DNA from: Lachnospiraceae bacterium
GTDB taxonomy: Bacteria > Bacillota > Clostridia > Lachnospirales > Lachnospiraceae
NCBI GenBank assembly: GCA_017553035.1
Contig: JAFZNE010000135.1
Span: 1-37,065, forward strand
Length of the DNA: 37,065 bases
Reading direction: 5' to 3'
Shown here: one piece after another, positions 4,691 through 20,216 of the stretch
How the letters are laid out: the number at the start of each line of letters is the position of its first letter
How positions within the stretch are numbered: position 1 is the first letter of the stretch
Notes under the pieces: generated by a model
Told to the model about the DNA's origin: nothing
The model's database searches: none
The model's input: the letters and a program-made list of their open reading frames with translations, nothing else
Program-made: the position numbers and the translations under genes

Positions 4691-6886
4691 ATGAAAAGGA
4701 TTATCAAAGGATCCGTACTGGTTTTAATTGTTTATTTGATGCTTGTATTTAGCGGAGGCTCCAGGGTCTCCGCTAAAGTTGTTTATGATGTTGACCAATA
4801 TATCGCCAATATTCTTGACTATAACATCAAAAACGATAATTCTTCCGATATCGGATCGTGGATCCGCGGCGTCCTTTCCGAAAGGATCGGAGGAACGGCG
4901 GAGTGGTATATCCTTGGAATATCTCAATATCCGGGATTTGCCGGAAGTGAGAAGAAAAGCATTGAGAAAGCGCTCGCATCTTATCGAAACTTACTTGAAA
5001 AATATATAAGTGAAAATGAAGTTAAAAATGCGACCGCAAGACTGAAGTTTTCCTTGGCGCTCGCAACATCGGAAGATCAGGAACGAAGCGGATCCGGAAA
5101 TGATACAGGCATTTCCGCAGGTGAACAATATATCGAAAAATGCATGTCCGACGGTACGATAGGCGGACTTGGCGTCATGAGCCTTATTTTCGGACTTCAT
5201 CTGGTAAATAACGGTTATATTTACGACGACGGGACTGTTGCCGATGGCAATATTTCCGAGAGATGGAAATATTCCGAGGACCAGCTTGTTACGAAACTGC
5301 TCGCCGAACAGCATAAAGACGGCGGCTGGTCGGTGATGGGTGAGTATGGGGATATTGATGTGACCGCGATGGCATTGCAGGCACTTGCGCCGTGTGTAAA
5401 TGATCATGAAACGGGGCAGGGAACAGGCAGCTCAGCATATGACGTTGGGAAGCTTAAGAAGGCTGTTGAGCGCGGAGTTGCATTTTTATCCGAATACCAG
5501 CTTGAAGACGGCGCCTATAAGGGATTCGGGGTCGAAAATGCAGAGAGTACCGCCCAGGTTCTGGCATGTCTTTCGGCATTGGGAATAGATTGTACAAAAG
5601 ACGAAAGGTTCATAAAAAATTCCAATACTATATTTGACGGATTGTTCAAATTTGCTCTGGAGGATGGTAGTTTCTCCCATGAGCTAAATAATGAATTCAG
5701 CGCTACGGCAACGGTGCAGGTTTTTTATTCGCTTGTTTCATATATCAGGATGAAGAAGGGGATGACACCGCTTTATGTACTTGATTCCTGCAGCGAAAGA
5801 AGAGCCCTGGTCCTTCGCGGAGGCGATACAACCGATGATGAGACCGGTGATGGAGGGAGCGAAGACGGAAATGATGATGGTAGGGCTGGAGATATATCTA
5901 ATGAGGATAATGGCCAACCGGGAAACACAACGGAAAATGATGAAAGCCAGGCAGGAGAAGAAAGATCTGAAGAAGATGGATCAGGAGAAAGTGTAATCGG
6001 AGAAGACAGGAACGAAGATGACAAATCCGGAGAAAGTGTAATTGGGGAAGATGAACGGGGAGAAAACGTAAACGGAGAAGACCAAACAGGCGAAAACGTT
6101 ATAGGAGAAAACCGATCAGGAGAAGAAGGAAATATAGAAACCCGGATAGAAGATAAAGGGACGAAAGATGATGTCGGAAATACCGAAACCGATAACATAG
6201 ATAACATTTCCGGTAAAGAATCTCCGGATAAAAACGAAGATGAAGGCAATGATAAAAACAAAGATAAAGACAAAAGCACAGATATAGGCAAAGGTAAAGA
6301 AAAACGCCCCGGCACGTACAAGATCTACGCGATAGCGGCGATCCTGGCGTTGTCAGCTGCTGTTTGCGCTGTATTTGCGATAAAGAAAAAACACAAGAAA
6401 AACTATATTTTTGTAGCGATCGTTGCGGCAATCGCCATTCTTACCGTAGCATTTACGGACATAAGAAGCGCGGAAAGCTACTACGGCACAGAAAGCGTTC
6501 CAAAAGATGAAGCCGTAGGGAAAGTCAGGATGTCGATAAAATGTGATATTTTGCAGGGAATGACGGATTCGGAGTATGTGCCGGATGACGGATACATACT
6601 GAAAGAAACGGAATTTGAGATCAATGAGGGCCAGACGGTTTATGATATTCTGATCGAGGCGGCACGGCAGTACGGTATCAGTGTGGATCATAAGGGAGGC
6701 TCGGATATTGTATATATTTCAGGCATCAATTATCTGTATGAGCTTGATTACGGCGATCTGTCAGGCTGGGTCTATAAAGTTAACGGACAGCTGCCATCGG
6801 TCGGATGTGCCGGTTACAAGCTAAGCGACGGCGATGTCATAGAGTGGTGCTATACTTTGGATCTGGGGAATGACAGCCTGGATTGA
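4691..6886 (+). CDS. Membrane-anchored transcobalamin-like protein (alpha/alpha toroid + DUF4430)
   Basis: A 731-residue surface protein. Seen: a signal peptide (about 1-28, ending RVSA-K); an alpha/alpha toroid region (about 35-355) with prenyltransferase/terpenoid-cyclase-type repeats such as DGGWSVMGEYGDIDVTAMAL, EDGAYKGFGVENAESTAQVL and EDGSFSHELNNEFSATATV; an acidic Asp/Glu/Gly/Asn-rich linker (about 370-540) with GESVIGED-type repeats; two transmembrane helices (544-564 and 571-589) joined by KKKHKK; and a C-terminal DUF4430 domain (about 605-731) with FEINEGQTVYDILIEAA and SGWVYKVNG. Vertebrate transcobalamin clamps B12 between an alpha6/alpha6 barrel and a C-terminal beta domain of this type. 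The hairpin would leave both halves outside the cell. Encoded 24 bases after the previous gene and before EcfT. Corrinoid binding is inferred. The ribosome binding site is weak. Confidence 0.75.
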   Translation: MKRIIKGSVLVLIVYLMLVFSGGSRVSAKVVYDVDQYIANILDYNIKNDNSSDIGSWIRGVLSERIGGTAEWYILGISQYPGFAGSEKKSIEKALASYRNLLEKYISENEVKNATARLKFSLALATSEDQERSGSGNDTGISAGEQYIEKCMSDGTIGGLGVMSLIFGLHLVNNGYIYDDGTVADGNISERWKYSEDQLVTKLLAEQHKDGGWSVMGEYGDIDVTAMALQALAPCVNDHETGQGTGSSAYDVGKLKKAVERGVAFLSEYQLEDGAYKGFGVENAESTAQVLACLSALGIDCTKDERFIKNSNTIFDGLFKFALEDGSFSHELNNEFSATATVQVFYSLVSYIRMKKGMTPLYVLDSCSERRALVLRGGDTTDDETGDGGSEDGNDDGRAGDISNEDNGQPGNTTENDESQAGEERSEEDGSGESVIGEDRNEDDKSGESVIGEDERGENVNGEDQTGENVIGENRSGEEGNIETRIEDKGTKDDVGNTETDNIDNISGKESPDKNEDEGNDKNKDKDKSTDIGKGKEKRPGTYKIYAIAAILALSAAVCAVFAIKKKHKKNYIFVAIVAAIAILTVAFTDIRSAESYYGTESVPKDEAVGKVRMSIKCDILQGMTDSEYVPDDGYILKETEFEINEGQTVYDILIEAARQYGISVDHKGGSDIVYISGINYLYELDYGDLSGWVYKVNGQLPSVGCAGYKLSDGDVIEWCYTLDLGNDSLD
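5970..6135 (+). repeat. Tandem degenerate repeats encoding an acidic linker
   Basis: Successive units encode SGESVIGED, SGESVIGED, GENVNGED, GENVIGEN and SGEEGN, with DNA units beginning GGAGAAA or GGCGAAA. The copies have diverged at both DNA and protein level, so this is an older tandem array. It forms part of the extracytoplasmic spacer between the toroid and the membrane hairpin. Confidence 0.7.
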
Positions 6887-6908
6887 AAGCGGCGGAAAGG
6901 AGCAGCGG

Positions 6909-7787
6909 ATGAGACGTTTCGGGGATCATAATCCCTTGACGGTCGCGATATATTATATTGCGGTTGTGACTATTGCGATGTTTACGATGAACCCGGTGCT
7001 CCATCTGATCGCTTTTTCCGGAGGAGCGTTACAATTTTCGATACAACGGGTAAAACATAAGGTCGGAACACACTTGCTGTTCCTTGTGATCGGTCTGATA
7101 CTTGCGCTTTTGCGGCCTTTGTTTTCACATAACGGAGCAACCGTTTTGTTTGTTATAAATGATAATCCGATAACGGCACAGGCCTTTATTTTTGGCATCA
7201 ATTCTGCAGTCATGGTAGTCGGAGTGCTGTATCTGTTCAGAGTATTTTCGATCATTATGACCAGTGACAGGCTGTTGTATCTGTTCGGAAGGTTATCACC
7301 GAAAACCGCGCTTGTGATGTCAATGGGACTGCGATATATACCGCTGCTGAAGGAAAAGAGCAGGCAGATCGGGGCGGCGCAGACCGCAGTGGGGATCAAC
7401 CGCGACGATAATGCGATCGACCGCCTGAAGGCCAGGATGAATGTTTTTTCAGCGACAGTGTCCTGGGGGCTCGAAAATGGCATAATAACTGCTGACAGCA
7501 TGGCGGCACGCGGGTACGGGTCGGGAAAACGCTCCTGTTTCAGGAAATTTTCGATAACCAAAGCCGATATAATCCTGATCCTGATCATGGTCATGCTGAC
7601 GGGGCCGTCGATAGCGGCGCTTATCACAGGTGATTATGATACCGTTTTTTATCCGCATTTTGAAATGAGCGGATTGAATTTTGTTTCTTTAGCCGGTTAT
7701 GTGACATTTGCGATACTTATGTTGATTCCGGTGTTAATAGATAGTTTGGAGAGTTTCAGATGGAAATACTTAGTGTCAAAGATCTGA
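6909..7787 (+). CDS. ECF transporter transmembrane component (EcfT family)
   Basis: A 292-residue integral membrane protein coupling the ATPase to the S component. The ATG at 6909 follows AAAGGAG (6895-6901) by seven bases; an upstream in-frame ATG at 6870 lies inside the previous gene and lacks a ribosome binding site. Seen: hydrophobic helices at about 13-45, 53-75, 93-120, 220-245 and 260-280. A long cytosolic coupling region includes MGLRYIPLLKEK and the AARGYG signature (EcfT coupling helices end in Ala-Arg-Gly motifs). It overlaps the downstream ATPase gene by 28 bases, implying translational coupling. Confidence 0.9.
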   Translation: MRRFGDHNPLTVAIYYIAVVTIAMFTMNPVLHLIAFSGGALQFSIQRVKHKVGTHLLFLVIGLILALLRPLFSHNGATVLFVINDNPITAQAFIFGINSAVMVVGVLYLFRVFSIIMTSDRLLYLFGRLSPKTALVMSMGLRYIPLLKEKSRQIGAAQTAVGINRDDNAIDRLKARMNVFSATVSWGLENGIITADSMAARGYGSGKRSCFRKFSITKADIILILIMVMLTGPSIAALITGDYDTVFYPHFEMSGLNFVSLAGYVTFAILMLIPVLIDSLESFRWKYLVSKI

Positions 7788-9478
7788 CATTTACATATCC
7801 GGGCGACGATAAGCCTGTTATAAAAAATGTTTCATTTGATATCCGGGAAGGCGAGATGATCGTTGTCTGCGGTAAGACCGGAAGCGGCAAATCGACCCTG
7901 CTCCGGCTGATCAAAGAGGAACTGCGCCCGTACGGCGAATTTTCGGGCAGCATCGAATTCAGTGATCCGTCGGTAAAAACCGGATTTGTGATGCAGAATC
8001 CGAACGAACAGGCGGTTACCGATAAAGTATGGCACGAGCTGGTTTTCGGAATGGAAAATTACGGCCTGAAGCAGGATGTGATGGCTCTGCGGGCAGCCGA
8101 GATGTCGGCATATTTTGGAATAGAAGAGTTATATGAAAAGAACGTGAATGAACTTTCCGGCGGACAGCTTCAGATGCTGAATCTGGCTTCTGTAATGGCA
8201 TGCGATCCCGATATACTTATCCTCGATGAGCCGACCGCCCAGCTTGATCCGGTTGCGGCATCAATGTTCCTTTCGGCGATCGAAAAACTCAATAAGGATT
8301 TTGCGCTTACCGTCATAATAGCCGAACACAGGCTGGATGACCTTCTTCCGATGTGTGACAGGATGATCGTGCTCGATGACGGCGCTGTGGCTGCTGAAGG
8401 AAAGGTTGCTGATGTGATCGCCGGAGCGGCTGCTTGTTCCGGATTATTCGAAACTCTGCCGGCTCCTTACAGGCTGAGCAGGATGCTTGGGGAAAACTCT
8501 GATTGTCCGCTCACGATCAGAGAAGGAAGAGAGTTTATAAGGGGATATTTAAAAAACGGAAACGCAGATACGGGCTCAAATAAAGGAATATTGCATAAAT
8601 CCGCGACGAACACGGATGATGAAAAAAATATTAAGGATAGAATAGAAAAAAGTGCAGATGAAAATAAAAGAGGCGATGAAACGAATCAAAATGATCGTAA
8701 AAATCCGGCACTGGAAATGAAACAGGTTTTCTTCCGCTACGACAGGTATTCACCGGATGTTTTAAAGGGATTTGACCTTACGGTTAATAAAGGTGAGATC
8801 TTCTGCCTGCTCGGAGGTAACGGGTCCGGAAAGACCACCGCACTGAATGTTGCCGCCGGACTTTTGAAGCCGTACAGCGGAAGTGTCAGGGTATTTTCGA
8901 CGAAAATAAAGGATTACAAGAACCAGGGTCTTTATAACAAATGCCTCGCAATGATGCCTCAGGATGTTCAGACGCTGTTTTTGTATGATTCTGTGCAAAA
9001 AGAGATCGACAGCATGGGTGGTTTTGATCTTCTGCCTTCGAATGTTGCGGAATGGATCCGTCCGTTTGCCGACAAGCATCCTTATGACCTTTCCGGCGGA
9101 GAACAGCAGATGGTTGCATTTGCGAAGACTCTTGCCGCGCAGCCGAAGCTCTTTCTTATGGATGAACCTACGCGCGGAATGGATGCGGAGTGTAAGATCA
9201 GGTTCGCTAGTGTGATCAAAGAACTTAAAAAAGAGGGGATCACATTTTTGATCGTGACCCATGATGTTGAATTTGCCGCCGTCTGCGCGGACCGCTGCGG
9301 ATTGTGCTTCAATGGGAAGATAGCTGCACTTACCGGAACGGAAGAATTCTTCGCTGACAACAGGCTGTATACGACTGCCGCGTGTCGCATGAGCAGAGGA
9401 GTCTGCGGGGGCGCGGCAACGATTGAAGGGCTTGCGGCGGTATTGGATACAGGAGGGAGAAGATTTGATAGTTTTTAA
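7760..9478 (+). CDS. ECF transporter double ATPase (EcfA-EcfA' fusion)
   Basis: A 572-residue protein with two ABC ATPase domains. Domain 1 (about 1-250): Walker A GKTGSGKST (38-46), signature LSGGQLQM, Walker B ILILDEPTAQLD, and an EHR switch. Domain 2 (about 315-550): Walker A GGNGSGKTT, signature LSGGEQQM, Walker B LFLMDEPTRGMD, and a THD switch. A charged Asn/Asp/Lys-rich linker (about 265-314) joins them. Both domains look intact. In many Firmicutes the two ATPases are separate genes shared among S components; a fused pair beside its own T and S genes suggests a dedicated group I system. The start overlaps the ecfT end by 28 bases, and its end overlaps the S component start by 14. Confidence 0.93.
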   Translation: MEILSVKDLTFTYPGDDKPVIKNVSFDIREGEMIVVCGKTGSGKSTLLRLIKEELRPYGEFSGSIEFSDPSVKTGFVMQNPNEQAVTDKVWHELVFGMENYGLKQDVMALRAAEMSAYFGIEELYEKNVNELSGGQLQMLNLASVMACDPDILILDEPTAQLDPVAASMFLSAIEKLNKDFALTVIIAEHRLDDLLPMCDRMIVLDDGAVAAEGKVADVIAGAAACSGLFETLPAPYRLSRMLGENSDCPLTIREGREFIRGYLKNGNADTGSNKGILHKSATNTDDEKNIKDRIEKSADENKRGDETNQNDRKNPALEMKQVFFRYDRYSPDVLKGFDLTVNKGEIFCLLGGNGSGKTTALNVAAGLLKPYSGSVRVFSTKIKDYKNQGLYNKCLAMMPQDVQTLFLYDSVQKEIDSMGGFDLLPSNVAEWIRPFADKHPYDLSGGEQQMVAFAKTLAAQPKLFLMDEPTRGMDAECKIRFASVIKELKKEGITFLIVTHDVEFAAVCADRCGLCFNGKIAALTGTEEFFADNRLYTTAACRMSRGVCGGAATIEGLAAVLDTGGRRFDSF

Positions 9479-10151
9479 AAATCAGCGGTTAAGATCCGTA
9501 TTGAAGATCCTGATCCCTTTTGTCCTGATACCTGCGGCCGCTGTGTCCGGAGTACTGCTTTTCGACAAACAGAAACATCTGATAGTTTCGCTCACTGTGG
9601 CTTTCCTCTCGCTGATACTGTTCTATGCGGGATTTGAGAAAAAGACGACGGGAACGCGCAGAATGGTGCTGGTAGCGATCATGACTGCCATCAGTGTGAT
9701 CGGAAGGTTCATACCGTTTTTCAAACCGATAACGGCAATTACAGTTATCACGGCGATGTATCTCGGAAGCGAAGCTGGATTCCTTGTCGGATCCCTCTCG
9801 GCCCTCATTTCCAATTTCTATTTCGGACAGGGACCGTGGACGGCATTTCAGATGCTTGCCTGGGGCCTGATAGGCTGGATAGCGGGAATGATCGCGAAAA
9901 AGCTGATCGACAACAAGATCCTGCTATATCTCTACGGAGTATTATCCGGGATCGCATTTTCGCTGATAATGGACGTATGGACTGTGCTGTGGTACAATGC
10001 GGGATTCGATATCGATCTGTATCTTGCCTCGATAACAGCAGCAATACCGCACACAATACTGTATGCGGTATCAAACCTGATATTTCTCATCGTCCTCGCA
10101 GACCCCTTCGGAGCCAAGCTTAAGCGGATAAAGATCAAATATGGGGTATGA
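9465..10151 (+). CDS. ECF transporter substrate-binding S component (possibly cobalamin/CbrT-like)
   Basis: A 228-residue polytopic membrane protein. TTG at 9465 is chosen as start because AGGAGGG (9451-9457) lies seven bases upstream; an earlier in-frame TTG at 9423 has no site. Seen: about six hydrophobic helices, with a first pair (about 9-28 and 34-53), a short basic loop EKKTTGTRR, then the ECF S-component core with FIPFFKPITAITVITAMYLG, NFYFGQGPWTAFQMLAWGLIGWIAG and a final helix. The FGQGPWT/QMLAWGL segment is typical of S components in the PF12822-type group. Operon partners with transcobalamin-like domains suggest a corrinoid ligand, but S components diverge so much that the ligand is only inferred. 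The stop codon is one base from the stop of the convergent ROK gene. Confidence 0.8.
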   Translation: MIVFKNQRLRSVLKILIPFVLIPAAAVSGVLLFDKQKHLIVSLTVAFLSLILFYAGFEKKTTGTRRMVLVAIMTAISVIGRFIPFFKPITAITVITAMYLGSEAGFLVGSLSALISNFYFGQGPWTAFQMLAWGLIGWIAGMIAKKLIDNKILLYLYGVLSGIAFSLIMDVWTVLWYNAGFDIDLYLASITAAIPHTILYAVSNLIFLIVLADPFGAKLKRIKIKYGV

Positions 10152-11289: not shown

Positions 11290-13452
11290 ATGAACGTTTT
11301 ATCTGTTTTACTGCTCGTTATTAGTGTTGGGTTTTCAATCTTTAACATGATAGTTATTCTGTTCACAAATTACAAGAACAGGGAAAGGATGAGCTCAGGC
11401 GGCAAAAAGATCCTGTTCCTCGCCGATCTTTCGGGTGCAATGGGTATCGTCATCGTCATGCTGAATATCATCCTGCTTATTCTGACGATCTTCAACAATA
11501 ATGAGACAGGATATCTTTTCTATGCGCTCAGCCTGCTCCTGACCACCTTTGATTGTGCGATCATCATCCGATTCAGAGGATATCAGAATCAGAAGATCAG
11601 CAGCGCTCTGATGCGTAATCAGCAGATCCTGGCCGAACGTAACAAGATCATGGCCAATATCTCCCATGAGATTAGAACTCCGATGAACACGATCATCGCG
11701 ATGAATGAGGTGCTGCTGAACGACAATTCGCTTCCCGACGCATACAAGGAGAAGCTTAACAGCATTTCCGACGCGAGCACGTCTCTTCTTCACGTTATCA
11801 ACAATCTTATCGATTTTACCAAGATCGAATCACAGCTGCTTGATATCATCGAAACCAATTATCTGCTCAAGGAACTGGTACAGAGCATAGTGGAAAAATC
11901 GAAGCCTTCCATTTCCGACAAGAATATCGATTTCAAGATCTCGGTAGATGAATCGATCCCTTCGGTACTTCACGGAGACGATGTCAGGATCATCCAGGTC
12001 GTTACAAACCTGCTTGACAATGCCTGCAAGTTCACCAATTCCGGAGTTATCGCGATCGAGATCTCCTGTGTAAGGCTTTCCGAGGACAAGATCAACCTTA
12101 TCTTCTCGGTACAGGATACCGGTATGGGTATTCCAGAAAGAGAAAGGGCGATCGTATTCAGTTCTTCGACAGTCAATTCCTCCAAGGACGACCACAGGCA
12201 GAAAGGCGCGGGTCTCGGACTTCTTATCTCGAAAAATGTTGTTGACAGGATGGGCGGCAGCATTTCATTTGAGACGGAAAGCGGAGTCGGAACCAAGTTC
12301 GTTGTTACGATCCCTCAGTTCGTTGTCGATGCCAATCCTATCGGCAAGATCAACTTCGGTGAAGGCAAGAGCGGAAGGTTCCTGTTCAAGGCACCCGGCG
12401 CGAGAGCACTGGTAGTTGATGACAATATCGTCAATCTGTTTGTTGCGAAGGAACTGCTTGAACGTTATGAGATCGAAGTGCAGACCGCATCAAGCGGCGC
12501 GGAGTGCCTTGATATCGTAACGGGCAATGTATTTGATATCATTTTCATGGATTATGTAATGCCCGGAATGGACGGACATGAGACCCTGAACAAGATCCAT
12601 TCGCTGGGGCTTGAGCATCTGAAGAAGGTGCCTATTGTCGCTCTTACCGCGCAGACCATGAGCGGTGCAGACAAGATCTACAAGGAAGAGGGATTTGACG
12701 GTTATCTTTCCAAACCTCTGAATGTAGACAGCCTTGAGGAAGAGCTTCTCAATCTGCTTCCGGGCAGGCTTATCGTAAAGAAGACCGTACAGCAGATGCC
12801 CGATGTGGATCCGGAACTCGAGAACCATTCGTGGTATCAGAGACTTTCGGGAATCCTCGAAGGCGTCAATGTCAAGAAGGGTCTCAGCCTTTGCGGCAAT
12901 GATTACTTCTCATATGTTAACCTGCTCCGTGTTATTTACAATGACGGAATGAACCAGATCTCCAAGCTGAAGTTCGATGTAGACCAGAACAGCTACGACG
13001 ATTACAGGATAACCGTTCACGCGATCAAGAGCGTTACCGCATCGGCAGGCGATGAGGAATTGAGCGAACTGTGCAAGGAGCACGAGGAAAGAGTTAAGAA
13101 CTGCGATTACGATTATATCAAAGAAAACGCGGGTGCACTCATCAGCCGCTACAGATCACTCCTGAGCAAGATCGATACGGCACTGCAGCGTGAAAACAGC
13201 GTAAGAGGTACATCGACGCAGACCAAGCAGAAAGTTAATGCCGACATTGATAATATCAACAGGCTGGCGGCTCAGCTCAATACCGCTCTTGATGATTTTG
13301 ATGCGGATGAGGCGGAGAAAGTTCTTGAACAGTTTGAGAACATCAATCTGACAAAAGAACAGGAAGAAGCAATAACGAATGTCAGGAGCAACCTGATGCT
13401 CTTCAAGTACGAAGAAGCACAGAATGCGCTTAAAAAGGCATTTATATTATGA
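11290..13452 (+). CDS. Hybrid sensor histidine kinase (HisKA-HATPase-REC-HPt)
   Basis: A 720-residue membrane kinase. ATG at 11290 follows AAAGGA (11275-11280); the upstream open frame has no initiation site. Seen: three transmembrane helices (about 3-25, 44-67 and 75-93) with little extracytoplasmic sequence, then a helix into HisKA with phospho-acceptor His126 in SHEIRTP. The HATPase has its N box at DNACKF (243-248), G1 DTGMGI (276-281) and G2 GAGLGL (306-311). A receiver domain has VVDDN (375-379), phospho-acceptor Asp421, Thr453 and Lys475. A C-terminal HPt carries His577 in HAIKS. All phosphorelay residues are intact. No separate response regulator is nearby, so the output must come from an unlinked regulator or a partner in this operon. 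The LRR gene starts about 23 bases downstream. Confidence 0.93.
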   Translation: MNVLSVLLLVISVGFSIFNMIVILFTNYKNRERMSSGGKKILFLADLSGAMGIVIVMLNIILLILTIFNNNETGYLFYALSLLLTTFDCAIIIRFRGYQNQKISSALMRNQQILAERNKIMANISHEIRTPMNTIIAMNEVLLNDNSLPDAYKEKLNSISDASTSLLHVINNLIDFTKIESQLLDIIETNYLLKELVQSIVEKSKPSISDKNIDFKISVDESIPSVLHGDDVRIIQVVTNLLDNACKFTNSGVIAIEISCVRLSEDKINLIFSVQDTGMGIPERERAIVFSSSTVNSSKDDHRQKGAGLGLLISKNVVDRMGGSISFETESGVGTKFVVTIPQFVVDANPIGKINFGEGKSGRFLFKAPGARALVVDDNIVNLFVAKELLERYEIEVQTASSGAECLDIVTGNVFDIIFMDYVMPGMDGHETLNKIHSLGLEHLKKVPIVALTAQTMSGADKIYKEEGFDGYLSKPLNVDSLEEELLNLLPGRLIVKKTVQQMPDVDPELENHSWYQRLSGILEGVNVKKGLSLCGNDYFSYVNLLRVIYNDGMNQISKLKFDVDQNSYDDYRITVHAIKSVTASAGDEELSELCKEHEERVKNCDYDYIKENAGALISRYRSLLSKIDTALQRENSVRGTSTQTKQKVNADIDNINRLAAQLNTALDDFDADEAEKVLEQFENINLTKEQEEAITNVRSNLMLFKYEEAQNALKKAFIL

Positions 13453-13475
13453 TATAAAGTTACGGGGTGTTAGTT

Positions 13476-14630
13476 TTGAACGGAAGTATCTTCAAAAAGG
13501 CCATATGTGCGGTCCTTGCCGCGATACTTATCGCAGGCTGTTTTTATACGGGGACCGGAGCTTCGGCTGCAAATAAAAGCTTTGAGCAGGATGGGTTTAC
13601 ATTTACGATAATTGATTCCGAGAATCTTCTCGTTTCGCTGAAAAAAGCACCGGAAGAAGCCGGTGACGGATATTATATCCCTGCAAGGATCAGGCATCGC
13701 AAGAAGACTTATACGATCACCGAGATCGGAAATGCGGCATATGCCTTTACGGACATAGAGGACGCAGCCATTCCCGGGACCGTGACCAGGATAGGGGATT
13801 CGGCTTTTGCCGGATGTTCGGCCCTTAAGCATGTTTATATCCCGGCAGGGCTTGAAAGTATAGGAAACGGTGTATTTTCGTACTGCGATGGACTGACAGA
13901 TATCGAGATCGATCCGGAAAATAAAGCATTTGTTTTTTTAAAAGGCATCCTTTATTCTGCTGACATGAAGAAACTTCTGTGGGGCTCAGGTTCGGTCAAA
14001 GCTTCGTGTGAAGTTGCGGATGGAACGGTTGAGATCTGTTCTTATGCTTTTGAAGGCAATAAGGTCATTACGAAGGTGAAGCTTCCCACGTCACTGCACA
14101 AGATCGGAAGAGGAGCTTTCATGGACTGTTCTGTTTTGGAGAGCGTTACCATCTCCAAGAATGTTAAAACGATCGAAGGCAATCCATTTATGTATTGTCC
14201 CGCACTCGAAAGCATCAGCATTGCAAAAGGCAACAAATCTTACAGTGCAGACAAATCCGGATTACTCCTGAATGCCAAGAAAACATCTCTTGTGAGCGCT
14301 TCCGCGGCCAGGGGTGATATTGAACTGCCCGAAACCGTCAAGAAGATAGTAAAAGGTGCGGCTGCCGGCAATACAGGGATAACTTCCGTTACGATCAATT
14401 CCAAGGTCAAGACCATAGAGGAATTTGCGTTTGCCGACTGCAGTTCTCTGGCCAAAGTCATTTTCAAAAGCAGAAAAACAGTGCTTCCGGAAGAAGGCGG
14501 GGTATTTAAGAATACTTACTACTATCTGGATGTTACGGTTCCTTATCCGTCCGGGTCGGGAGTTCAGGGTGATTTTGAAGATCTGATACGCAGCAATTCT
14601 CCGAACGGAGTTATAGTTATCTGGAGGTAA
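13476..14630 (+). CDS. Secreted BspA-type leucine-rich repeat protein
   Basis: A 384-residue exported protein if translation starts at TTG 13476, which has a GGGGTG site six bases upstream; GTG 13467 is the alternative. Seen: a signal peptide with hydrophobic core AICAVLAAILIAGCFYTG and an Ala-rich cleavage region. An Ile-Gly-x-x-Ala-Phe/Tyr beta-propagating region follows, with LRR_5-type repeats: ITEIGNAAYAFTDIEDAAIP, RIGDSAFAGCSALKHVYIP, SIGNGVFSYCDGLTDIEI, KIGRGAFMDCSVLESVTI and TIEEFAFADCSSLAKVIF. No LPxTG or membrane anchor is visible. BspA-like repeats usually mediate binding of proteins or polysaccharides at the surface. Placement between two hybrid kinases, 23 bases after one and 17 before the other, suggests it could be a ligand-binding accessory of one sensor, but that is inference. 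Confidence 0.88.
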   Translation: MNGSIFKKAICAVLAAILIAGCFYTGTGASAANKSFEQDGFTFTIIDSENLLVSLKKAPEEAGDGYYIPARIRHRKKTYTITEIGNAAYAFTDIEDAAIPGTVTRIGDSAFAGCSALKHVYIPAGLESIGNGVFSYCDGLTDIEIDPENKAFVFLKGILYSADMKKLLWGSGSVKASCEVADGTVEICSYAFEGNKVITKVKLPTSLHKIGRGAFMDCSVLESVTISKNVKTIEGNPFMYCPALESISIAKGNKSYSADKSGLLLNAKKTSLVSASAARGDIELPETVKKIVKGAAAGNTGITSVTINSKVKTIEEFAFADCSSLAKVIFKSRKTVLPEEGGVFKNTYYYLDVTVPYPSGSGVQGDFEDLIRSNSPNGVIVIWR

Positions 14631-14647
14631 AGAGGGGAGAAGGTTTT

Positions 14648-17600
14648 ATGTTCGACTATGTTGTCAGCTATGATATAGCCGCAATGATCCTGATACTTAT
14701 ATTTTCAGTCTTTTTCTTTACAAGGCGCAGATATAAGTCTATTCAGATGAAAACATATTCGTTACTTCTGATACTTGCCGGAGTAAGTGTTTTCTTCGAT
14801 CTTCTGTCTGTTCTTCTGCTTCAAAACAGGCATACGGTTCCGGTAAGTCTGAATTATATCTCCAATATTATGTATTTCCTGAGCGCGGGATTTCTTGCGG
14901 TAGTATTCTGCGCTTATACGCTAAATGCGACCAACAGCCTTTCAACACTTCTTCACAGTACCGGCAAGCTTGTTGCCTTTGAGATCCCGTTCATCGTATA
15001 TGCCCTTGCTCTGGTTACAACTCCGTTCACAGGATATGTGTTCTATTTTGACGAGCAATGCGAATACCAGCAGGGTCCATTTACCTACGGATCGCTGGCA
15101 CTTCTTGTTTTATATCTTATCTTTGCTGCGGCAAGAATGACATTTCACAAAGATACCGTTTCACTCAGAAGAAGGCTGCCGTATTACATTTTCATATGCC
15201 TTGAATTCATAGCGATCGTTCTTCAGGTTGTTTTCCCGCAATATCTGCTCGACGGGTTCGGTTCCGCGATTGGAATAGTGACACTGTATCTTCTTGAGAA
15301 CAATGCAAACGATTATGTGGATTATGATACTCAGCTCTTCAACAGGAACGGTTTCAGGATGAAACTTACCGAAATGCAGAGAGCCAATAAAGAATGCTGC
15401 ATAATCGGATATGGCTTTCTTGACAATATCATTACTTTGGAGGGGCAGGATTCGACATACGGAGATTTTATCGTAAATAAGACCGGTGCATATCTGATCC
15501 AGCATTTTGATGCAGAGAATGTGTATTATTTCGGCAGCTTTACTTTTGCGATCATCCTGAAAGATAAAGAAGATAAAGACGAAGCTATATATACGATTCG
15601 GAATTGTTTACGCGATCCCGTCAAGCCGAACGATCTTGAAAAAAGACTGAGCATAGGATTGTGCGAACTGTATTTCCCGACCCAGTACAACAGTATAAAT
15701 GCACTGACCGATGCAGTTGAAAACGGCATTAAATCTTCGATCGCGAAAAGAGGTGCCGTGCTTACCGCCGAAGATATCAGGATCGAGCAGGAAAATAAGA
15801 TCAAAATGCTCGAGGAAGCCCAGGTTCTGCTGAAGGAAAAATACGACGAAGCCGAGATCAAGATGCAGAAGGCGATGGAAGCCGACAGATCGAAGAGTAT
15901 GTTCCTTGCGCAGATGTCGCATGAGATCAGGACTCCTATGACCGCGATCCTCGGAATGACCGAACTGCTTCTTCGTGATACCAAAGAGCCCAAGGCAATA
16001 GAACATGCCAAAGCCATAATGAGCTCCGGCAAGACCCTGATCGGAATTATCAACGATATCCTTGATTTCTCCAAGATAGAAGCAGGTAAGCTGCAGATCA
16101 TCAACGAAGAATATTATTTCACATCAACATTTTACGATATCCTGAATAATATCGAGCAGAAGATCAGTGAGAAGCGTCTTGATTTCGTGGTCTATTTTGA
16201 CCCGAAGATCCCTGCTTCCTTCTACGGCGATGAAGTGAGGATCAAGCAGATTATCATCAACCTGCTGACCAATGCATGCAAATATACGGAAGTCGGACAG
16301 ATCGAGCTGAAGACTTTTATTACCGATCGAAATAATGATGAATGTATTTTGAATATAATCGTTTCGGATACCGGCGTCGGAATTTCCGAAGAGAATATTG
16401 ACAAGCTCTTTACCGGTTTTGAGCGTCTGGGAGCCCAGAAGAACAAGGCTATCGAAGGCACGGGACTGGGACTTGCGATCACCAAGCAGCTTGTTGATAA
16501 TATGAACGGAACAATCGAAGTCAAGAGCGAAGTTGCAAGAGGTACGACATTTACAGTAAGGATCCCCCAGCATATCATCAATGACAGGGATTCCATCGTA
16601 CTTGAGGACTGCGGCAGCCTGAAGATCCTGATATTCTGCAGTTCGATCAATGAGCTCAGAAATTACAGAAATACGCTGAAAGATTTTGAACTTGAAGTTG
16701 ATTATGCTTCCAACAGCGATGACTTTGACAAGAAAGCAGGCCAGAAGGAATATACACATATCATAATGCCGCTTGTTGAATTTGAGCGCAGAAGACGTAA
16801 CAGGGACCCTCTGATCAATGACGACAGGGTTGTGGTCGGCCTGTATTACCGCGAGTATCTGGCTGATGTCGGAGGGCACAGGACCATCAACATGCCGATC
16901 AGCAGTATCAATTTCAGTTCTCTGATCCTCGAAAATACCGAAGCAAGCAAGCATACGGTCAACATCCGTGAAAATGAATATGTTGCGCCCGATGTAAATA
17001 TGCTGGTAGTTGATGATAACCTTGTTAACCTGAGGATTTTCGTCGGATTGCTCGAGAACCACAAGATGAATATTTTTACCGCAGACAGCGGTGTGCATTG
17101 TATCGAAATGTGTCAGAGGATGAAATATGATCTGATATTCCTCGATCACATAATGCCAAAGAAAGATGGTATCGAGACCCTTCACGAGATGAGGTCCGAT
17201 CCGGGAACCATGAATGCCCAGACTCCTGTTATCGCATTTACGGCGAATGCCGTCAGCGGTATGAAGGATATGTTCCTCGAGCAGGGCTTCAACGATTTCC
17301 TTTCGAAACCTATCGAACTTACAAAACTCGAGGATATACTTGCTTATTATCTGCCGGATGAGAAGATCATTACGATCAAGAACAATGCTGCTGCATATAA
17401 CGAGATAATGAGCAAGCAGAAGGATGAACCGCTCAAGGCCGAAGCTTCGGCGGATGAAGGCGAGGCAGCTCCGTTTACCGTTGAAGGCCTTGATATGGAG
17501 CAGGCGCTGTTCTATTCGGGTAACAGCTACGATACGCTGAAGGATATCCTGAACGTATTTTTCGATGACGGGACCAAGAAGCTGGATCTTCTGGTCAAGT

Positions 17601-18070
17601 ATATCGAGGAGGAGGATTTTGAAAATTACAGAATTGAGATACATGCTGTAAAGAGCCTGTGTAAGGGCGTAGGAGCAGAGGAACTTTCGGAGAAAGCTCT
17701 GAGGCTCGAAAATGCCTGCAAAGAGGGTGATTACGAATATGTTCGCAATAATGCCCAGGAGGCGTATACCGATTATGTTCTGCTTCTCGGAAGGATAGGC
17801 GAAGCCCTTTCGGATATCAACAATACACAGGAAAATGAAGCGGTAAGCACAGGCAAGCCGTTGCTTGAAGTAAAGGAACAACTGTTATGTATCAAGCTTC
17901 TACTGAGCGAATTTGAGGAAAATACGGCGATCAAACTGGCCGATGACCTTAACGGCAGGAGTCTGGACGAAAGTCTGAAAGAAAAGATCGATCAAATTAA
18001 TAAGATGCTGCATCTGTACGATTATGACGGCGCATCGGAAATGATTGGAGAGATTTTGGATGAAGATTAA
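14648..18070 (+). CDS. Large hybrid histidine kinase with degenerate GGDEF, two receiver-like domains and HPt
   Basis: A 1140-residue membrane kinase. Seen: about seven transmembrane helices in residues 8-215, like a 7TM sensor; a degenerate diguanylate-cyclase-like domain (about 228-362) in which the GGDEF site reads GSFTF (296-300), so it should be inactive; a coiled coil (about 375-415); HisKA with His425 in SHEIRTP; HATPase with NACKY (542-546), DTGVGI (574-579) and GTGLGL (604-609); a pseudo-receiver (about 657-765) without a recognisable acceptor; a true receiver with VVDDN (787-791) and Asp833; and an HPt with His999 in HAVKS. The tail (1070-1140) resembles that of the upstream kinase, suggesting shared ancestry. 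The stop overlaps the OLD-family start by 11 bases. Confidence 0.92.
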   Translation: MFDYVVSYDIAAMILILIFSVFFFTRRRYKSIQMKTYSLLLILAGVSVFFDLLSVLLLQNRHTVPVSLNYISNIMYFLSAGFLAVVFCAYTLNATNSLSTLLHSTGKLVAFEIPFIVYALALVTTPFTGYVFYFDEQCEYQQGPFTYGSLALLVLYLIFAAARMTFHKDTVSLRRRLPYYIFICLEFIAIVLQVVFPQYLLDGFGSAIGIVTLYLLENNANDYVDYDTQLFNRNGFRMKLTEMQRANKECCIIGYGFLDNIITLEGQDSTYGDFIVNKTGAYLIQHFDAENVYYFGSFTFAIILKDKEDKDEAIYTIRNCLRDPVKPNDLEKRLSIGLCELYFPTQYNSINALTDAVENGIKSSIAKRGAVLTAEDIRIEQENKIKMLEEAQVLLKEKYDEAEIKMQKAMEADRSKSMFLAQMSHEIRTPMTAILGMTELLLRDTKEPKAIEHAKAIMSSGKTLIGIINDILDFSKIEAGKLQIINEEYYFTSTFYDILNNIEQKISEKRLDFVVYFDPKIPASFYGDEVRIKQIIINLLTNACKYTEVGQIELKTFITDRNNDECILNIIVSDTGVGISEENIDKLFTGFERLGAQKNKAIEGTGLGLAITKQLVDNMNGTIEVKSEVARGTTFTVRIPQHIINDRDSIVLEDCGSLKILIFCSSINELRNYRNTLKDFELEVDYASNSDDFDKKAGQKEYTHIIMPLVEFERRRRNRDPLINDDRVVVGLYYREYLADVGGHRTINMPISSINFSSLILENTEASKHTVNIRENEYVAPDVNMLVVDDNLVNLRIFVGLLENHKMNIFTADSGVHCIEMCQRMKYDLIFLDHIMPKKDGIETLHEMRSDPGTMNAQTPVIAFTANAVSGMKDMFLEQGFNDFLSKPIELTKLEDILAYYLPDEKIITIKNNAAAYNEIMSKQKDEPLKAEASADEGEAAPFTVEGLDMEQALFYSGNSYDTLKDILNVFFDDGTKKLDLLVKYIEEEDFENYRIEIHAVKSLCKGVGAEELSEKALRLENACKEGDYEYVRNNAQEAYTDYVLLLGRIGEALSDINNTQENEAVSTGKPLLEVKEQLLCIKLLLSEFEENTAIKLADDLNGRSLDESLKEKIDQINKMLHLYDYDGASEMIGEILDED

Positions 18071-20216
18071 CTCTTTACTTATCAAGAATTTTAAAACGAT
18101 CCGCGAGCTGAATATCGATGACATCGATAATGCCATGATAGTCGTCGGAAAGAACAGTACCGGTAAGACGACGATACTTCATGCCATCAGGGCAGTTGCC
18201 GGCAAATACGAGGTTAAGAGTACGGATTTTCATAATCCCGAGAGGAATATCGAAATAGCGGTAGAACTCGGGATAAGCTCCGACGATATCAGGGTTTTCT
18301 ACAAGTCGGGAGTATTAAGTATTTATAAGACTTTCAGCATGTGGTACGATGAGTTCTGCCTGAAACTTCCGAGCTTCACAAAGGGCCGGGATGAATATGA
18401 ACTCGTATCGAATGAAGAGGGCGAAGCACAGCCCGAGAATAAGGATACCGTTAAGGGAGAAGTTTATATCCGCAGCGATCTTTCGGATAATGCCGATATG
18501 GTGCCCAAGGGACAGCTGTATATGCCTTCGGAACTTACGGGACTTGTGGGATCCCAGCCTCATGCACAGATCACCGATACGGATCTCGGCGGAATACTCA
18601 GGTTCGTATTTGTTGTGGATCCCGATCTGAACATCCGTTATTCGGACGGTGTGAACCGCAATAACAGCAATATCAAGAAAGTAATACCGAACTGTCATTT
18701 TATAGATGCTTCCAGAAATATCAAAGATATCCAGAACGATATCTTCTTTTCGGAGACGGATGATGCGCTGATCCCGGTCAGGGACAACTACTGTTTCGAA
18801 GACCCGGCCAAGCCCTGTATGGACTGCTTCAGATGTATACCCGGGATTTTGAAGAAACAGCCGGAAGAACTCAGCGTTGTAGAGACCGTTAGATTGCTTG
18901 AATACAAACTGATGCAGATCAAGCTGGATTCGTTCATGGAGAAGCTTAATCTGTATTATACAAGGAACAGCGGAAGACAGCAGAATATCAAGTTTGTAAT
19001 GAACCTGAACACCGACAATCTGCTTCGTCTCGATACTGCGGTACTCAACAGAGACAGGTACAGTGCCGATTCGGTTGAAACAATGAGTGCCGGTGCCAAG
19101 AGTATTTACATCTTTTCACTGCTGCAGACTTATATTGAAGAGAGTAATTCGATCCCGAGCCTTATCATGATCGAGGATCCGGAAATATATCTGCATCCGC
19201 AGCTCCAGAAGGTCGCAAGTGAGATCCTGTACAAGCTTTCTTCGAAGAATCAGGTATTCTTCTCGACTCATTCACCGAATATGATCTTCAACTTCAACTC
19301 CAAGCAGATCAAACAGGTGGTGCTTGATGAAGAGGGCAATACATCACTGAACGAGAATTCCGATATTGATACGATCCTCGATGATCTCGGATATTCAGCC
19401 AATGATCTGATGAATGTCAATTTCGTATTCATCGTCGAAGGAAAACAGGACAGCAACAGGCTTCCTCTTCTGCTTAATAAGTATTATTCCGAGATTTACA
19501 ATGATGACGGAACCTTACAGCGTGTTTCGATCATTACGACCAACAGCTGTACGAATATCAAGACGTATGCGAACCTTAAGTATATCAACAAGCTGTATCT
19601 GAAGGACCAGTTCCTGATGATAAGGGACAGCGACGGCAAGGATCCGCAGGCACTTGTAAAGCAGTTGTGCAACTACTATTTTTCAAGGTCGCAGGAGGAT
19701 AAGGGCAATCTTCCGAGGATACAGCCGAGGAACGTCCTGGTTCTCAAATATTATTCCTTCGAAAATTATTTCCTGAATCCGGAAGTAATGGTCAAGATCG
19801 GCGTTATCAAGCACGAAGAGGAGTTCTATAATACGCTTCTTGACAAGTTCAAGAGTTATCTGCACAAGATAGCGAGCGTTAAGAGAATGAAAGAGGCTAC
19901 GGGACTGATCATAAGGACCAAGGAAGATATCAAGCGTAATATGGAGACGATCAAGATCTATGTGCGCGGCCACAATCTGTTTGATATTTTCTACGGAAAG
20001 TACAAGGGAGAGAAGGAGACCGAGATCCTCAAAGCGTACATCGATGCCGCGCCGAGATCGGATTTCGCGGATATCCTGAATGCGATCGACAATTTCATCT
20101 ATTTCATGAACAGACGAAGAGATGATGAAGAGGATAATGCAGAGATAGGCCAGGAACAGGTGTACACGAAGCATAAGAAGAAAAAACGGCATAAAGGGAA
20201 GAACCGGCAGGTATAA
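18060..20216 (+). CDS. OLD-family AAA ATPase with C-terminal TOPRIM domain
   Basis: A 718-residue protein. ATG at 18060 follows GGAGAG; it overlaps the upstream kinase by 11 bases. Seen: an SMC/ABC-like ATPase with Walker A GKNSTGKTT (30-38), signature-like MSAGAKSIY (near 342-350), Walker B LIMIEDPE (368-375) and an H-loop in FFSTHSP (His404). The TOPRIM domain has VEGKQD with Glu460, and RDSDG with Asp523/Asp525. It matches the layout of OLD nucleases such as P2 OLD and GajA. An insert between Walker A and the signature holds Cys245, Cys253, Cys256 and Cys259, a C-x7-C-x2-C-x2-C cluster that could bind zinc or iron-sulfur. The basic tail KHKKKKRHKGK may bind nucleic acid. There is no UvrD-like GajB partner, so it would be a stand-alone class. 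Coupling to a histidine kinase is unusual; substrate and role are unknown. Confidence 0.85.
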   Translation: MKINSLLIKNFKTIRELNIDDIDNAMIVVGKNSTGKTTILHAIRAVAGKYEVKSTDFHNPERNIEIAVELGISSDDIRVFYKSGVLSIYKTFSMWYDEFCLKLPSFTKGRDEYELVSNEEGEAQPENKDTVKGEVYIRSDLSDNADMVPKGQLYMPSELTGLVGSQPHAQITDTDLGGILRFVFVVDPDLNIRYSDGVNRNNSNIKKVIPNCHFIDASRNIKDIQNDIFFSETDDALIPVRDNYCFEDPAKPCMDCFRCIPGILKKQPEELSVVETVRLLEYKLMQIKLDSFMEKLNLYYTRNSGRQQNIKFVMNLNTDNLLRLDTAVLNRDRYSADSVETMSAGAKSIYIFSLLQTYIEESNSIPSLIMIEDPEIYLHPQLQKVASEILYKLSSKNQVFFSTHSPNMIFNFNSKQIKQVVLDEEGNTSLNENSDIDTILDDLGYSANDLMNVNFVFIVEGKQDSNRLPLLLNKYYSEIYNDDGTLQRVSIITTNSCTNIKTYANLKYINKLYLKDQFLMIRDSDGKDPQALVKQLCNYYFSRSQEDKGNLPRIQPRNVLVLKYYSFENYFLNPEVMVKIGVIKHEEEFYNTLLDKFKSYLHKIASVKRMKEATGLIIRTKEDIKRNMETIKIYVRGHNLFDIFYGKYKGEKETEILKAYIDAAPRSDFADILNAIDNFIYFMNRRRDDEEDNAEIGQEQVYTKHKKKKRHKGKNRQV

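Follow-up and report, generated by a model that had tools for sequence, protein, structure and literature searches.

An OLD-family gene paired with the gene of a predicted secreted LRR protein, with or without two hybrid histidine kinase genes, in one genus of Lachnospiraceae

Four adjoining collinear genes, all on the forward strand, form an array in the 37,065-nucleotide stretch of DNA analysed here (the window), which comes from an uncultured gut Lachnospiraceae bacterium. The genes, together with two features inside the last of them, are as follows:

11290..13452, forward strand: HK1, hybrid histidine kinase; start ATG 11290, in an open frame that opens at GTG 10981
13476..14630, forward strand: LRR, LRR protein; start TTG 13476, alternative start GTG 13467
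14648..18070, forward strand: HK2, hybrid histidine kinase
18060..20216, forward strand: OLD, OLD-family protein; start ATG 18060, alternative start TTG 18045
18792..18836, forward strand: four-cysteine cluster of OLD (C245, C253, C256 and C259 in the 718-aa reading), invariant in 84 of 84 sequences
19437..19634, forward strand: TOPRIM-like motifs of OLD, from VEGKQD (E460, D464) to RDSD (D523, D525)

The ORF coordinates confirmed the layout given in the initial annotation, namely four genes on one strand with gaps of 23 bases (HK1/LRR) and 17 bases (LRR/HK2) and an overlap of 11 bases (HK2/OLD). The annotation was also right that the cluster holds no response regulator, as the forward strand of 11290-20216 consists of these four genes and carries no stand-alone one. 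A divergent ROK-family gene lies on the 5′ side of the array and a convergent gene of the HlyC/CNNM type on its 3′ side, so that the array is bounded on both sides. A pattern scan found 24 promoter-like sites vs. a mean of 16.0 (sd 3.9) in shuffled sequence, which is not evidence of function, and 7 terminator-like sites vs. 7.6 in shuffled sequence, which is the chance level; the same scan showed no clear internal boundary within the array. The order HK1-LRR-HK2-OLD recurs in 9 of the 24 genomes of the genus and is thus not one assembly's chance. Two other features of the window may be mentioned here. A 585-aa open frame antisense to HK2 (16124-17881, reverse strand) has no Pfam match and is probably a coding-strand shadow, and the series of genes at 4691-10148 (a DUF4430 protein, CbiQ, a double ABC ATPase and an ECF-type S component) looks like an ECF transporter operon carrying a large DUF4430 protein.

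HK1 and HK2 share the HisKA-HATPase_c-REC-HPt layout of hybrid histidine kinases. Initially, both had been credited with intact HisKA, REC and HPt domains, and this stood for HK2 and for the HisKA and REC of HK1: HisKA, HATPase_c and REC were above the Pfam cut-offs in each protein, and the HPt of HK2 passed as well (26.9 bits, cut-off 24.6). The HPt of HK1, in contrast, stayed under the same cut-off with 20.4 bits, its HxxKS motif being visible by eye. Inspection by eye further revealed the phosphoacceptor residues of both kinases, the N-terminal hydrophobic segments that make HK1 a membrane kinase, and about seven hydrophobic segments in the N-terminus of HK2. A degenerate GGDEF domain suspected by eye in HK2 (residues about 219-400) was discarded, having no Pfam match up to E 10. 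The window genome as a whole is rich in the component families, with 35 LRR_5 and 37 HisKA matches; the latter number was reached despite a 2.5-Mb incomplete assembly, and many of these matches lie in long open frames.

The LRR protein has the two marks of the secreted BspA-type proteins, that is, LRR_5 repeats (141 bits, Pfam) and a Sec signal peptide, the latter judged by hydropathy. A signal-peptide-like hydrophobic N-terminus was seen in 23 of the 24 LRR proteins of the genus by hydropathy rather than by a signal-peptide program; the start of the one exception (L048) may be misjudged. The linkage of its gene to OLD sets the protein apart from other BspA-type proteins, as may a C-terminal segment that is conserved across the 13 OLD-linked LRR sequences aligned.

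The N-terminal part of OLD is an ABC/AAA_15-type ATPase (AAA_15, 94.5 bits, Pfam) in which the Walker A, signature, Walker B and H-loop elements are all present. Across the 84 OLD sequences that also served for the tree described below, G30, G35, K36, E372 and E375 were invariant, the signature residue G345 was kept in 83 sequences and H404 in 82. The four-cysteine insert is a probable metal-binding site, to judge from its sequence. The C-terminal domain can be called TOPRIM-like on the basis of its motifs and a weak profile match (Pfam OLD-like_TOPRIM, 15.1 bits, below the cut-off of 23.2); its acidic residues E460, D464, D523 and D525, and also E568, were invariant in all 84 sequences, and the first TOPRIM motif aligns with P2 Old. 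In the PADLOC library the best match of OLD was Old (110.2 bits), followed by AriA (106.5), AriAB (74) and GajA. DUF2813 matched with 31.5 bits (cut-off 21), no single stretch passing the E limit. The best PDB sequence matches were TsOLD (6p74) and GajA with alignment A1, and 6p74 and the AAA family ATPase 9n69 with the wider alignment A2; with both alignments the best stretches fell in the ATPase part. No AriB-type family was found in the C-terminus among the Pfam matches listed up to E 10, and a Pfam search found no receiver or other phosphoacceptor domain in OLD, which leaves a direct phosphorelay to OLD unsupported.

OLD proteins have been described chiefly as components of antiphage systems. 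The protein studied here resembles P2 Old and TsOLD (6P74) of Class 1 in that a single chain has an ABC-type ATPase at its N-terminus and TOPRIM motifs towards its C-terminus, and the profile comparison with P2 Old gave a probability of 95.8 over residues 361-478, from Walker B to the VEG motif. However, P2 Old has no CxxC and is prophage-borne, whereas the window OLD has a cysteine cluster and is chromosomal. Moreover, Class 1 proteins are described as single genes in the available text of PMC10568477, from which the class scheme was taken, while the OLD gene of this genus is part of an operon-like array and has the LRR gene upstream of it in all 24 genomes. Gabija GajA (class 2), retron OLD (class 3) and PARIS AriAB (class 4) share the ATPase/TOPRIM design and gave weaker profile matches; in contrast to these systems, the Pfam scan of 29 window ORFs revealed neither a helicase nor a reverse transcriptase nor a separate AriB-type gene, so that the reverse transcriptase adjacent to the Class 3 proteins has no counterpart among them. 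The immediate neighbours of OLD are HK2 and the HlyC/CNNM-type gene.

Two resident OLD proteins offer a different comparison. E. coli YbjD (proposed oldB) is likewise a chromosomal OLD, and DUF2813 matches the window OLD too; the profile comparison was nevertheless weak (probability 18), and YbjD lacks the CxxC. In the available text of PMC13261556, YbjD has no operon partner, and induced ybjD is reported to give antiphage phenotypes. Cran1, a class 5 archaeal OLD from Sulfolobales, is described in the available text of PMC12796447 as lying in a potential operon with a membrane-protein gene and as a protein with apparently no antiviral role; deletion of its gene was not possible. Compared by this description, it shares with the window OLD a conserved OLD gene and a potential operon partner, and differs in coming from Sulfolobales and not from Lachnospiraceae. 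As judged by titles, we found no description of an OLD-kinase or OLD-LRR operon among the papers listed.

To see which of the four genes belong together, we compared the surroundings of OLD in 23 relatives of the window genome, which gives a genus set of 24 genomes. Most of them are incomplete (completeness 64-100%), and in one, G004, OLD is split between two contig ends, so that the LRR-OLD order was seen there as far as the contig end inside OLD. The OLD gene was present in 24 of 24 genomes, and LRR lay upstream of it in all 24, directly or with HK2 between. The full order HK1-LRR-HK2-OLD was seen in nine genomes (window included), HK1-LRR-OLD in four, and LRR-OLD without HK1 and HK2 in 11; an HK1 orthologue thus adjoins LRR in 13 of the 24 genomes and an HK2 orthologue sits between LRR and OLD in nine. 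The constant pair is LRR-OLD and not kinase-OLD, and the 11 kinase-less loci rule out kinase-OLD as a conserved unit. The operon proposed in the initial annotation therefore survived in part: the operon-like linkage holds for LRR and OLD across the genus, while the link of the kinases to OLD is missing in 11 of 24 genomes.

HK2 overlaps OLD by 4 bases in L031, L036, L037, L038 and L041 and by 11 bases in L056 and the window, and gaps of 71 and 39 bases separate the two genes in L039 and L049, respectively. In the 15 loci without HK2, the distance from LRR to OLD was from -11 to +43 bases in 12, and 86, 115 and 155 bases in the other three. The adjacency of LRR and OLD is kept across two flanking contexts and with or without the kinases, whereas the OLD-HlyC neighbourhood is not kept.

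Other genes near the array were noted as well. In nine of the 11 kinase-less loci a small protein with two hydrophobic segments and no Pfam family is encoded directly 5′ of LRR (for instance, L050:10341-10709). It was considered as a stand-in for HK2 and dropped, as it has matches in 16 of the 24 genomes, in six kinase-bearing ones on other contigs. In the kinase-less locus L050 (genome G006), two ORFs at paralogue level, one kinase-like (383 aa) and one receiver-like, lie about 5.8 kb 5′ of LRR. In three genomes (L034:9295-12432, reverse strand, and also L035 and L033) a further hybrid histidine kinase is encoded upstream of HK1. In the L034 kinase, Pfam found domains of ferredoxin and of the iron-only hydrogenase large subunit (Fe_hyd_lg_C) at the N-terminus; its best match in the window genome is L186, and it possibly senses hydrogen or the redox state.

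The OLD tree (84 rows, quick LG+G4, SH-aLRT only; without both G004 pieces, 19 genus-repeat loci, L124, which equals the G034 record, and L105, where no OLD ORF was called) placed the genus in one starred clade of 23 rows. Within it, the 11 LRR-OLD rows formed one clade (99, starred), the four HK1-LRR-OLD rows another (100, starred), and the eight four-gene rows fell in two groups, the arrangement labels needing two changes in all. Given these clades by arrangement, the two label changes and the shared ancestry, the linkage reflects few independent events; by our estimate, the 24 of 24 count stems from about three.

We then asked whether the genes at these loci are orthologues and whether the missing kinases had merely moved. 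The comparison sets in the window genome were 30 fetched loci each, drawn from its 35 LRR_5 and 37 HisKA places. The window LRR was the best window-genome match for 22 of the 23 OLD-linked LRRs of other species. Kinase-bearing loci gave a wide margin, several kinase-less ones a thin one (for example, 140 vs. 139 bits in L044), and for the L046 LRR it was reversed (window LRR 102 vs. 104 bits). Window HK1 was the best match in 12 of 12 HK1 rows, three hydrogenase-linked kinase rows being set aside, and window HK2 in 8 of 8 HK2 rows. No HK1 match in the 11 kinase-less genomes exceeded 294 bits, which is the level of paralogues (315-320 bits in two carriers, whose HK1 orthologues score 894 and 469 bits). 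Likewise, 47 bits was the highest score of the HK2 sensor region among the 15 genomes whose locus lacks HK2, vs. 405 and 221 bits in two carriers. As far as incomplete genomes allow, these scores indicate that HK1 and HK2 are missing there and have not moved. Outside the genus, relatives of the HK2 sensor were seen in 6 of 198 genomes (8 of 200 including two of the genus), and three of the six also have OLD, on other contigs.

The genes of the array evolve at clearly different rates. Between the window and six A2-clade species, identity was 68-70% for OLD, 61-64% for ArgRS, 72-73% for MgtE and 58-60% for HlyC, vs. 41-43% for HK1, 38-40% for HK2 and 31-38% for LRR. Among the kinase-less species (10 of 11, G014 being left out), the mean pairwise identity was 47% for LRR, 87% for OLD, 88% for an arabinofuranosidase-like neighbour and 75% for an ion-channel gene. 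Judged by sequence identity, LRR diversifies fast with or without HK1 and HK2, and the constraint on OLD matches that on housekeeping genes, being like that on ArgRS and MgtE.

Furthermore, a scan of genome contigs yielded at least 357 OLD relatives, mostly from Lachnospiraceae or other Clostridia among the best 80 that were retained (19 in the genus and 61 outside). Among these 61 outside loci, the gene directly 5′ of OLD on the same strand encodes a flavin reductase in 39 and another protein in seven; 14 have no same-strand 5′ gene within 320 bases and one has no called OLD ORF. MurA-like (38), shikimate kinase (19) and DHH/DHHA2 family (19) genes also recur near OLD in the best 80 of the at least 357 relatives, the families of the neighbours being judged from one example each. 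An ORF similarity search found neither an LRR nor a kinase gene adjoining OLD on its strand in any of the 61 loci. The closest cases within this set were a divergent 369-aa classical kinase adjoining OLD in L089, the only one of its kind, an opposite-strand kinase two genes from OLD in L130, and, in L129, a hybrid kinase located four genes downstream; in 12 of the 61 loci in all, a kinase- or receiver-like ORF lay no more than six genes from OLD. The sole LRR-like ORF (L088) is on the opposite strand, two genes off OLD. In L083, the gene 5′ of OLD resembled an LRR gene on inspection but was not counted, as Pfam gave only a weak fn3 match. The initial annotation had named homologues of OLD lying mostly away from such kinases as evidence against its proposal, and this is what the 61 loci, taken from the best 80 of at least 357, display.

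With regard to mobility, OLD was found in 56 of 200 genomes of a family sample, with one match in each, and in 2 of 245 genomes of a class sample, namely the window's own genome and a partial match. There were no matches among 50,697 phage records and two among 72,556 plasmid records (E limit 1e-10), both on Lachnospira eligens replicons of about 627 kb typed as non-mobilizable; in the one replicon viewed, OLD shares 35 bases with a gene for a membrane protein of the DUF975 type. No OLD relative was confirmed among 94 candidate viral contigs. A mobile antiphage module was rejected in view of the 24 of 24 presence in the genus, the housekeeping synteny, the lack of matches in the phage records and the non-mobilizable plasmid matches. 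OLD thus looks like a resident, vertically inherited subfamily and not a mobile defence module, although the gene is missing from many lineages, with only 56 of 200 family genomes positive, which speaks the other way. The antiviral hint in the initial annotation is weakened by similar facts: the gene occurs once per positive genome, evolves slowly, lies in housekeeping synteny and matches nothing in the phage records.

From the observed gene order, conservation, residues and distribution we infer a shared transcript, an enzymatic activity, metal binding and a role for the OLD array. OLD would belong to an OLD subfamily centred on Lachnospiraceae, as a resident chromosomal gene passed on vertically, and its ATPase may control a putative TOPRIM-type site acting on nucleic acid. 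In the genus of the window the gene is found away from its usual neighbours, in an operon-like array beside a fast-diversifying BspA-type LRR gene, HK1 and HK2 belonging to the array in some lineages only. The LRR protein would work outside the cell. Where present, the kinases would respond to a signal from the envelope or the environment and hand phosphate on to a regulator whose gene lies elsewhere. OLD would then be produced under the same conditions as the surface LRR protein, the coupling being one of transcription, and its task would most likely be chromosome- or RNA-related maintenance or stress, rather than that of a mobile antiphage effector. The most likely maintenance or stress role on nucleic acid is proposed by analogy with Cran1, as described in the available text of PMC12796447. 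We hold this explanation as a whole, a resident non-mobile OLD transcriptionally coupled to a secreted LRR protein and serving maintenance or stress, with moderate confidence. In its favour are the position of LRR ahead of OLD throughout the 24 genomes, the single OLD of each positive genome, the flavin reductase synteny and the conserved residues. Against it count the 56 of 200 presence in the family, which would also suit a resident defence gene such as ybjD (available text of PMC13261556), the Old model at the top of the PADLOC library, and the motif-based assignment of TOPRIM.

A rival reading takes the array for a resident antiphage system, in which the LRR protein would meet phages or other mobile elements at the cell surface, the kinases would report envelope perturbation, and OLD would halt the infection by cleaving DNA or tRNA. 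It could draw on the PADLOC ranking, with Old (110 bits) ahead of AriA, AriAB and GajA, on the ybjD precedent of antiphage phenotypes upon induction (available text of PMC13261556), on the patchy presence in the family, and on LRR being the fastest-evolving gene compared (47% vs. 87% for OLD in 10 of the 11 kinase-less species). We nevertheless consider it unlikely, since OLD is found throughout the genus, its tree and neighbours look vertical, no phage record matches it, and OLD itself is not diversifying; moreover, LRR-OLD persists without HK1 and HK2, and no LRR adjoins OLD in the 61 loci outside the genus (best 80 of at least 357). Still less probable is direct signal transduction, with the LRR protein as sensor, HK1 and HK2 as the phosphate relay and OLD as the output. 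The four-gene order kept in 9 of 24 genomes and the 4-base HK2/OLD overlap in five loci would fit it, but OLD has no detected receiver or phosphoacceptor domain, a kinase stands beside OLD in just one of the 61 outside loci (best 80 of at least 357) and there on the other strand, and the kinases are missing from 11 of 24 loci in which LRR-OLD remains. As their orthologues were not found in those 11 genomes either, the signalling from the kinases to OLD suggested in the initial annotation is unsupported. The lack of a phosphoacceptor domain in OLD, together with the dispensability of HK1 and HK2 to LRR-OLD, points to OLD being co-expressed with the sensors and not driven by them; shared transcription of the array is, on the sequence data, likelier than a direct path from the kinases to OLD.

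The linkage might also be passive: the genes would have met a single time, in an ancestor of the whole genus, and the order that is left would be a relic without functional meaning. The few independent events, with two label changes on the OLD tree, would fit such a history, as would the abundance of LRR_5 and HisKA genes in the genome. Against it stand the retention of LRR-OLD despite loss or absence of the kinases and across two flanking contexts, while OLD-HlyC was not kept, and the spacing of -11 to +43 bases in 12 of 15 HK2-less loci, and we regard it as doubtful. A bolder reading takes LRR-OLD for a new bacterial module in which a secreted, diversifying recognition protein and an obligate cysteine-cluster OLD, with an optional two-kinase gate, would link an outside event to an action on nucleic acid, the cysteine-cluster OLDs of Lachnospiraceae forming a separate OLD class; this is a speculation to which we give little credence.

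The surprise of this locus is thus not a kinase-OLD operon; it lies in an apparently resident OLD subfamily that, within one genus, is always accompanied by a predicted secreted LRR protein. A single-copy, slow-evolving OLD in housekeeping synteny across genera of Lachnospiraceae, whose carriers include named isolates such as Lachnotalea glycerini DSM 28816 and Anaerobium acetethylicum GluBS11, would give bacteria an example of an OLD with a cellular role, as reported for archaeal Cran1. In addition, the pairing of LRR and OLD is a testable hint that an OLD enzyme may be tied to surface biology in one genus of this family.
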